A DNA stretch of 64,000 nucleotides from a bacterium. GTDB lineage: Bacteria > ARS69. The DNA is taken from NCBI GenBank assembly GCA_025774805.1, contig JALGZR010000010.1:1-64000 (forward strand), given 5' to 3'. Both the position numbers and the translations under genes were made by a program. Position 1 is the stretch's first letter. Every line of letters starts with the position of its first letter. Shown here piece by piece: positions 56,458 through 59,793 of the stretch. The notes beneath the pieces are model-generated. The model was not told the DNA's origin and made no database searches. It worked only from the letters and a program-made list of their open reading frames with translations.

Positions 56458-58374
56458 ATGAAGCTCGATGCGAAGATCCCGTCCGGGGCCATTGCCGAGA
56501 AGTGGGATCGGCACCGCTTCGAGATGAATTTGGTCAACCCGGCGAACAAGCGGAAGTTCGAAGTGATCGTGGTGGGCTCGGGGCTGGCCGGGGGGTCGGC
56601 CGCCGCGACCCTCGCCGAGCTCGGATACCGCGTGAAGTGCTTCTGTTACCAGGACAGCCCGCGGCGGGCCCACAGCATCGCCGCCCAGGGCGGAATCAAC
56701 GCCGCGAAGAACTACCAGAACGACGGCGACAGCGTCTATCGCCTCTTCTACGACACGGTGAAGGGAGGCGACTTCCGCTCTCGCGAGGCGAACGTCTACC
56801 GGCTCGCCCAGGTGAGCACGAACATCATCGACCAGTGCGTTGCGCAGGGAGTTCCCTTCGCCCGCGAGTACGGCGGACACCTCGCGAACCGCTCCTTCGG
56901 GGGCGCTCAGGTGTCCCGTACGTTCTACGCCCGGGGACAGACGGGGCAGCAGCTCCTCCTCGGAGCCTACTCGGCGCTGAGCCGGCAGATCGGGGCGGGC
57001 GCGGTGGAGATGCACTCCCGCAGCGAGATGCTCGACCTCGTCGTAATCGACGGGCGCGCGCGGGGCATCGTCACGCGCGATCTGATCACCGGCAAGATCG
57101 AGACTCACGTCGCAGACGCGATCGTATTGGGGACGGGTGGATACGGTCCGGTGTTCTTCCTCTCGACGAACGCCAAGGGCTGCAACGTCACCGCAACGTG
57201 GCGCGCGCACAAACGGGGCGCGGGTTTCGCGAATCCCTGCTTCACCCAGATCCACCCCACCTGCATTCCCGTCTCGGGCGAGCACCAGTCCAAGCTCACC
57301 CTGATGTCCGAGTCGCTCCGCAACGACGGGCGCATCTGGGTGTCGAGGAAGCCTGGAGACACTCGTCGCCCGGGAGACATCCCCGAGGGCGAGCGCGACT
57401 ACTTCCTCGAGCGCAAGTATCCGAGCTTCGGCAACCTCGCCCCGCGCGACATCTCCTCGCGCTCCGCGAAGGAGGTCTGCGACGAGGGCCGAGGGGTGGG
57501 CGAAACCGGTCGCGGGGTCTACCTCGATTTCGCCGACGCGATCGAGCGCCTCGGGCGCAGGGTGATCAGCGAGCGCTACGGCAACCTGTTCGACATGTAC
57601 GAGAAGATCACGGGGGAGAATCCCTACGAGGTGCCGATGCGCATCTACCCCGCCTCCCACTACACGATGGGAGGGCTCTGGGTGGACTACAACCTGATGA
57701 GCACCGTGCCCGGTCTCTTCGTGATCGGCGAGGCGAACTTCTCCGACCACGGCGCCAACCGGCTCGGGGCGAGCGCGCTCATGCAGGGGCTCGCGGACGG
57801 CTACTTCGTCCTCCCCTACACGATCGGCAACTATTTCGCCTCGGAGGGAAAGCCCCCGGAGGTGGCGCCCGATCATCCCGAGGCCCGGAAGGTCGTCGAG
57901 GAGGTCCGCAACCGCATCGATCGGCTCCTCGGCGCGAACGGAAGACGCACACCCGATACGTTCCACCGGGAGCTCGGCGAGCTCGTCTGGGAGGATTGCG
58001 GCATGTCCCGCAACGAGGCGGGTCTGAAGAGGGCTCTCGAGCGGATTCCCGAGCTGCGGGCCGAGTACTGGGAAGACGTCAACGTCCTCGGAACGGCGGA
58101 GTCGCTCAACGTCTGCGTCGAGAAGGCGACGCGGGTCGCCGACTTCCTCGAGTTCGCCGAGACGATGTGCCGCGACGCTCTCGAGCGTGACGAATCGTGC
58201 GGAGCCCACTTTCGGGAGGAGCACCAGACCTCCGAGGGCGAGGCGAAGCGGAACGACACCGAGTACGCTCACGTGAGCGTCTGGGAGTACCGGGGAGAGG
58301 ACGAGGCGCCGGTCATGCACAAGGAGCCTCTCACGTTCGAAGAAGTCCGGCTCGCGACGAGGAGTTACAAGTGA
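56458..58374 (+). CDS. sdhA: Succinate dehydrogenase/fumarate reductase flavoprotein subunit
   Basis: 638 aa. FAD-binding [20 protein letters not shown] near residue 36; the covalent-FAD His is in [20 protein letters not shown]. Active-site parts are [10 protein letters not shown], the [10 protein letters not shown] histidine in [10 protein letters not shown], and [20 protein letters not shown]. Full length for the family. Its stop overlaps the sdhB start (TGATG). Confidence 0.96.
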
Positions 58375-59123
58375 TGAACCTGACCCTGAAGGTGTGGCGC
58401 CAGAAGGATGCCCGGGACAAGGGGAGCATCGTCACTTACGAGGTGAAGAAGATCAGCCCGGACTCCTCGTTTCTCGAGATGCTGGACCAGCTCAACGAGG
58501 ACCTCCAGAACCGCGGGGAGGAGCCGATCGCCTTCGACCACGACTGCCGCGAGGGGATCTGCGGCATGTGCTCCCTCGTGATCAACGGAATTCCCCACGG
58601 ACCGGAGCGGGCGACGACGGTCTGTCAGCTTCACATGCGTCACTTCCGCGACGGAGACACCATCTTCATCGAGCCGTGGCGGGCCCGCGCGTTTCCCGTG
58701 ATCCGGGATCTGGTGGTCGACCGGACCGCATTCGACCGGATCTTCCAGGCGGGGGGATACGTCTCCGTGAACACGGGCGGTGCCCCCGACGCCAACGCGG
58801 TGCCGATCGCCAAGGCCGATGCCGACCTGGCCATGGACGCGGCCTCCTGCATCGGGTGCGGGGCCTGCGTCGCCTCCTGCCGGAACGCGTCCGCGATGCT
58901 CTTCGTGGGGGCCAAGATCTCCCAGTTGCGCCACCTGCCCCAGGGGCAGCCCGAGAGAAAGCGGCGGGCCCTCGCCATGGTGGCGCAGATGGACCGTGAG
59001 GGCTTCGGCAACTGCTCGAACCACTACGAGTGCGAAGCGGTGTGTCCCAAGGAGATCAAGCGCGACGTCATCAACGAGCTGAACCAGGACTATCTCGTGG
59101 CGAGTCTCACGGGGAGGGAGTGA
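58374..59123 (+). CDS. sdhB: Succinate dehydrogenase/fumarate reductase iron-sulfur subunit
   Basis: 249 aa. The [2Fe-2S] motif is [20 protein letters not shown] with the later Cys in TTVCQLHM; the [4Fe-4S] and [3Fe-4S] ligands are in [11 protein letters not shown] and [19 protein letters not shown] 58374 is coupled to sdhA; its TGA overlaps the ATG of the next gene, the ArsC/YffB-like selenoprotein candidate. Confidence 0.96.
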
Positions 59124-59464
59124 TGGCCCGGATCCGGATGTACGGAAAGGGCACCTGAGGCACGGTCCGCAAGGCAAGAGGTCTCTTGCGCGAACTGGGG
59201 ATCGAGTACGATTTCCGCGACACCGCGAAGGAGCCGCTGAGCGCGGCGGAGCTGAAGAGGCTCGTCGGGAAGCGCCCGATCGAGGACTTCCTGAACCCGC
59301 GCAGCACCTCCTACCGCAAGATGGGACTGAAGAACCGGAAGATCTCCCGCACCGAGGCGATCCGGCTGATGGTCGAGGACGGCAATTTCATTCGACGGCC
59401 GATCCTGATCTCCGGGTCGCGCGCCGTCTTCGGGTTCGACGACACGGTCTACCGAGAGCTCTAG
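59123..59464 (+). CDS. Probable selenoprotein: ArsC/YffB (Spx-like) family with in-frame UGA at the redox Cys
   Basis: Reading from ATG 59123 (GGGGAGGGAG just upstream, overlapping the sdhB stop) gives [11 protein letters not shown], then TGA at 59156-59158, then GTVRKARGLLRELGIEYDF and an intact ArsC/YffB-like remainder to the stop at 59462-59464, 113 residues in all. Family members have the form Y-G-x-x-x-C-G/D-T-x-x-K-A; the UGA is exactly at that Cys, so Sec12 is proposed. FLNPRSTSYRKMG and FIRRPILISGSRAVFGFDD match conserved family parts. A hairpin at SECIS position follows (59174-59189). A conventional call from TTG 59186 would lose the active site. Alternative: a nonsense mutation. Confidence 0.82.
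59174..59189 (+). promoter_or_regulatory. Bacterial SECIS-like hairpin
   Basis: GCAAG (59174-59178), loop AGGTCT (59179-59184), CTTGC (59185-59189). It begins 15 bases after the UGA and its loop 20 bases after it, within the known bacterial SECIS window, and has G at the second and third loop positions. The loop hexamer equals, to my recollection, that of E. coli fdhF. An alternative 6-bp stem CGCAAG/CTTGCG (59168-59173 with 59185-59190) would expose the same GGTC. Confidence 0.7.
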
Positions 59465-59559: not shown

Positions 59560-59793
59560 GTGCCCTACGGGAAGGGACCGTGGGTCGGTCCGGTCGAAGA
59601 GGGAACCAAGGCGTTCTGCGCCTGCGGCGAATCGAGCGACAAGCCGTACTGCGACGGCAGTCACCATCGCCTTGGCACGGGGAAGACGCCGTGCGTCTAC
59701 GAGATCACCGAGAAGAAGAACTATGCCATCTGCCAATGCGGCACGAGCCGGACACCCCCCCTGTGCGACGGCTCCCATAAGACGCTGAGCTGA
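59560..59793 (+). CDS. Double CDGSH iron-sulfur protein
   Basis: 77 aa with two complete CDGSH motifs: Cys20, Cys22, Cys31, His35 (CACGESSDKPYCDGSH) and Cys58, Cys60, Cys69, His73 (CQCGTSRTPPLCDGSH). Each binds a labile [2Fe-2S] cluster with 3Cys-1His ligation, as in mitoNEET/Miner2-type proteins. No membrane anchor is present, so it is cytosolic. GTG 59560 has AGGAGG five bases upstream. Follows sdhCAB and the ArsC-like gene; an electron- or cluster-transfer role is plausible. Confidence 0.93.
   Translation: MPYGKGPWVGPVEEGTKAFCACGESSDKPYCDGSHHRLGTGKTPCVYEITEKKNYAICQCGTSRTPPLCDGSHKTLS

Follow-up and report, generated by a model that had tools for sequence, protein, structure and literature searches.

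A probable bSECIS element in a UGA-containing ArsC/Spx-like gene downstream of sdhAB

In bacteria, selenocysteine (Sec) is decoded by SelB. In complex with GTP and Sec-tRNA(Sec), it binds to the loop of a hairpin (SECIS) and delivers Sec to a UGA codon that occupies the ribosomal A site. The intragenic SECIS of Escherichia coli fdhF (formate dehydrogenase H, Sec140) lies just after its UGA; in strain MG1655, UGA codon 140 is followed by 17 nt and then by the apical loop AGGUCU. Bacterial SECIS (bSECIS) elements are described by an apical loop of 3–9 nt, a stem of 4–16 bp, a G at loop position 1 or 2 that precedes a G or U, a spacing of 16–37 nt and a minimum free energy (MFE) of −7.5 kcal/mol or lower (PMC13188914). 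A Sec-containing arsenate reductase (COG1393) with its bSECIS has been known since the Sargasso Sea selenoproteome of 2005 (PMC1088965), and the Sec forms UxxS and UxxC of ArsC have been listed (PMC13188914).

Here we analysed a candidate of this kind in a stretch of 64,000 nucleotides (the window), in which the following features are relevant:

56458–58374, forward strand: sdhA/frdA flavoprotein gene, operon partner, with UGA as stop (NF005749, 1184.7 bits)
58377–59123, forward strand: sdhB/frdB iron-sulfur protein gene, operon partner, with UGA as stop (NF005746, 434 bits)
59123–59464, forward strand: ArsC/Spx-family ORF of 113 codons, with U12 encoded by UGA (TIGR01617, PF03960 and read-through homologues)
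59156–59158, forward strand: in-frame UGA, probably read as Sec, at the catalytic Cys column of ArsC/Spx
59174–59189, forward strand: probable bSECIS upper stem-loop GCAAGA-GGUC-UCUUGC, with hexaloop AGGUCU when the A-U pair is left open
59180–59183, forward strand: apical tetraloop GGUC, RGUY among same-register homologues, with G-U at the tip
59168–59173 and 59185–59190, forward strand: arms of an alternative stem CGCAAG/CUUGCG, not conserved

The apical loop is identical to that of E. coli fdhF, a match that the sequence-only reading had correctly pointed out, and the hairpin is likewise intragenic and placed after the UGA. However, the UGA-to-loop distance is 20 nt instead of 17 nt, the stem sequence is unrelated and lacks the bulged U of the upper stem, and the host gene is ArsC/Spx-like and not a molybdoenzyme.

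The ArsC/Spx-like gene and the selenocysteine machinery

The ORF starts with an ATG at 59123 that overlaps the sdhB stop (ATGA) and ends with a TAG at 59464, the UGA being codon 12. Its product matched TIGR01617 (Spx/MgsR, ArsC-related) over its full length with 79.5 bits (cut-off 75.05) and PF03960 (ArsC) with 62.6 bits, above the cut-off, and scored below the cut-off for TIGR00014 (ArsC, glutaredoxin-dependent arsenate reductase; 46.7 bits versus 106.05). Sec at the catalytic position would be the sole Cys/Sec-type residue of the protein, which is devoid of Cys and contains Val at position +3 (UxxV), often occupied by the resolving Cys in relatives. The ORF is located directly 3′ of sdhA-sdhB, and sdhB also adjoins the homologue of the sister genome (L020/L025), the only other genome in the wider clade where this neighbour was seen among the loci looked at. 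Gene order in these two genomes suggests a link between the protein and succinate dehydrogenase/fumarate reductase. Directly downstream, at positions 59560–59793, is a gene with a GTG start whose product is a CDGSH iron-sulfur protein, matched by PF09360 in two stretches.

The sdhA and sdhB genes of the same operon terminate at UGA, and the reading of this codon must therefore depend on context. Their stops speak for the alternative that the UGA at codon 12 is also an ordinary stop, or the product of pseudogenization or sequencing error, with the downstream ORF translated separately from TTG 59186 and a hairpin that is a chance product of GC-rich DNA. Nevertheless, a start at TTG 59186 would delete the active site, and the genome encodes SelB (382.9 bits), SelA (535.7 bits) and a tRNA-Sec (72.3 bits) with anticodon UCA. 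We did not find SelD in the source MAG (96% complete, 5% contamination), but all four phylum-mates contain it, each with an in-frame TGA, and its absence is thus likely an assembly gap. SelD of these phylum-mates (L076–L079) is itself a selenoprotein, with the motif GUASK, and AGGU-type hairpins occur approximately 34–36 nt downstream of the SelD TGA in three of the four (L077–L079).

A further possibility is that a reassigned code or a suppressor tRNA gives the UGA some other amino-acid meaning and that the hairpin only promotes read-through, like the stimulatory hairpins of other systems. We consider this hardly credible, because UGA terminates nearby genes, a canonical tRNA-Sec(UCA) is present together with SelA and SelB, and the homologues carry exclusively UGA or Cys codons in this column (see below).

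Structure of the hairpin and its significance in a single sequence

The sequence-only reading had proposed a SECIS-like hairpin, GCAAG-AGGUCU-CUUGC, with its loop 20 nt past the UGA, and considered that its distance, loop G and loop sequence fitted bacterial SECIS rules. Its location was exact, with arms GCAAG at 59174–59178 and CTTGC at 59185–59189 enclosing AGGTCT at 59179–59184, and the published model bore out the fit, since the hairpin lies within every sequence, spacing and energy limit of the consensus bSECIS. Pairing of A59179 with U59184 produces a 6-bp stem capped by the tetraloop GGUC, 21 nt from the UGA, whereas leaving them unpaired results in 5 bp and the AGGUCU hexaloop. The predicted MFE of the region was −9.9 kcal/mol in a 39-nt fold and −14.5 kcal/mol in a 44-nt fold, although this criterion discriminates poorly here, with fold energies no lower than those of shuffled sequences (z from −0.7 to +0.7). 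Folding, which had been put forward as a check, gave the SECIS stem as the predominant structure (predicted probability 0.74–0.96), and the loop G stayed unburied. An Rfam scan of the region returned a single chance match (mir-602, 19.9 bits versus a gathering score of 90).

It had also been noted that a second 6-bp stem, CGCAAG/CUUGCG, could form and that two conformers might compete. Both pairings do exist in the window and their isolated helices have similar energies (−5.8 and −6.2 kcal/mol), which speaks for a conformational switch regulating Sec insertion through mutually exclusive stems. Nonetheless, the predicted occupancy of the alternative stem was only 0.02–0.07 in all contexts folded, the stem is disrupted in the sister homologue and, among 11 homologues, 75.8% of its cells pair with covariation not above that of shuffles. 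The idea of competing conformers was consequently rejected, and we regard a regulatory switch as extremely unlikely.

The immediate context of the hairpin has 68% GC, and a hairpin of equal or higher stability with any G-containing loop appeared in 40% of synonymous recodings; an equally good hairpin with a GG or GU tip appeared in 23%, under a slightly different codon model, and AGGUCU anywhere within 66 nt in 2.2%. These frequencies of 23–40% speak for an ordinary stop with a fortuitous hairpin. Taken alone, the window hairpin is weak evidence and is not significant with respect to synonymous recoding. The SECIS inference made from this one sequence was right yet under-determined, because 23–40% of recodings equal the hairpin and its fold energies equal those of shuffles. 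Within this one sequence, a hint comes from the use by the hairpin of codons that are rare here, namely GCA (5.1% of Ala), AGA (3.4% of Arg) and TTG (4.6% of Leu).

Conservation of the hairpin among UGA homologues

The homologue from the sister genome, with 64% protein identity and also located after sdhB, keeps both the UGA and the unbroken block AGAGGTCTCTTGC, which requires the rare codons AGA (3.4%) and TTG (4.6%). By HMM-anchored extraction we aligned 80 loci, whose UGA column contained 34 UGA and 46 Cys codons, and no others. Removal of duplicates left 29 UGA and 43 Cys sequences, 42 of the latter being included in the tree (one was too short). Besides the window gene, the UGA set comprises 28 distinct homologues from the sister genome, many Acidobacteriota, Tectomicrobia, Chloroflexi and one other phylum; a search of viral contigs found no relative.

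UGA homologues lacking any hairpin at this position had been named as evidence that would count against a SECIS, but all 29 UGA forms contain a hairpin with a GU or GG tip at a permitted spacing (16–30 nt), whereas the Cys homologues are mostly without one. Hairpins of −3.5 kcal/mol or lower were found in 28 of 29 UGA forms versus 4 of 42 Cys forms, and those with a GU tip in 26 of 29 versus none of 42. The tree requires at least four Sec/Cys changes; in four independent contrasts the hairpin accompanied Sec in approximately 3.7–3.9 on average and the reverse never occurred, a number of contrasts insufficient for a formal p below 0.05. A combined synonymous-recoding test yielded p values of around 1e-25 for the Sec forms and 0.99 for the Cys forms, which serve for ranking only because the sequences are related.

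We evaluated covariation, as had also been suggested, in the 11 sequences sharing the register of the window. The SECIS stem pairs in 97.7% of cells, with double substitutions between G-C and A-U both within the stem and between the two ends of the loop: stem pair 20–27 is G-C in seven sequences and A-U in four, and the first and last loop bases (pair 22–25) change together, being G..C in eight and A..U in three. The covariation score of this stem was reached by none of 500 shuffles and matched by no slid version, and RNAalifold recovered the same stem unprompted. SelB contacts loop bases in the fdhF SECIS, which the conserved GU tip would fit. Two more groups of homologues have the hairpin in other registers, with a pentaloop of the AGUUU type and with a GGUC/AGUU type at +17, respectively. 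As judged from these alignments, the comparative evidence for the hairpin is far beyond chance.

Several individual homologues deserve mention. UGA homologues L113 and L129 show a SECIS-like hairpin at +28/+29 with the loop UGGAU/GGA instead of the GU tip; within a single gene family, the element has shifted its register. Just past its Cys codon, the Cys-form homologue L106 (from the search of the phylum Acidobacteriota, G671) retains AAGAAGUUUUCUU, a hairpin of low stability (0.1 kcal/mol) with the Sec-type pentaloop AGUUU that may be a fossil SECIS left after a Sec-to-Cys change. In L124 (G602), a second in-frame stop, TAG, occurs around 36 nt past the TGA and inside the conserved region, which may reflect gene decay or faulty assembly.

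The co-occurrence of hairpin and UGA among homologues, the position of the UGA exactly at the catalytic Cys in several phyla and the conservation of the downstream protein also argue against termination at codon 12, which we consider very unlikely. It is highly probable, on the comparisons described here, that the hairpin is a bona fide bSECIS of a selenocysteine-containing ArsC/Spx-like protein. We infer that, during translation, SelB carrying Sec-tRNA(Sec), with its UCA anticodon, would bind the stem-loop just past the UGA at 59156–59158, and that Sec would be inserted in the cell at codon 12 instead of termination. The outcome would be a full-length, 113-residue thioredoxin-fold protein of the ArsC/Spx family, with a putative redox role needing an external thiol.

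Comparison with known selenoproteins

An annotation pipeline would probably cut this gene at codon 12; its sequence indicates a full-length selenoprotein. The homologues provide 29 natural SECIS variants, all from a single gene family and accompanied by Cys-form controls, and this set separates the RNA features tied to Sec decoding (the GU tip, the closing changes G..C/A..U and a movable spacing) from those that are not.

Among curated families, NF041106 (ArsC_rel_Se_1, ArsC family (seleno)protein, UxxC) is ArsC-related and, by its name, has Sec at the same position; however, the window protein matched it only weakly over the full length (28.4 bits, cut-off 85), and five further proteins of the clade were also below this cut-off, with at most 34.5 bits. 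The window protein and these five relatives being well under the cut-off, the clade appears to be uncurated and missed by the NCBIfam selenoprotein models, and our results point to a selenoprotein clade outside them. Spx/MgsR (TIGR01617) gives a full-length match, yet Spx/MgsR are Cys proteins, and some close Sec relatives score under its cut-off of 75.05. We tentatively propose, at somewhat less than even likelihood, that the gene belongs to a broad uncurated clade of Sec ArsC/Spx-like proteins that is common in Acidobacteriota. Across this clade the SECIS would have been rebuilt with its loop at +17, +21, +23 and +28, mostly retaining the GU tip, and in this phylum the protein may serve a Sec-only redox step, free of Cys, together with succinate dehydrogenase/fumarate reductase.

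The Sec arsenate reductase of COG1393 shares with the window protein the ArsC fold family, a Sec at the catalytic Cys and a downstream bSECIS. Compared by description, it is typed as TIGR00014 and UxxS, whereas the protein described here is best matched by TIGR01617, is UxxV, contains no Cys and neighbours sdhAB. Thus, bSECIS elements and Sec ArsC proteins were already known, and what is new is a UGA-containing member in a branch outside the curated models.
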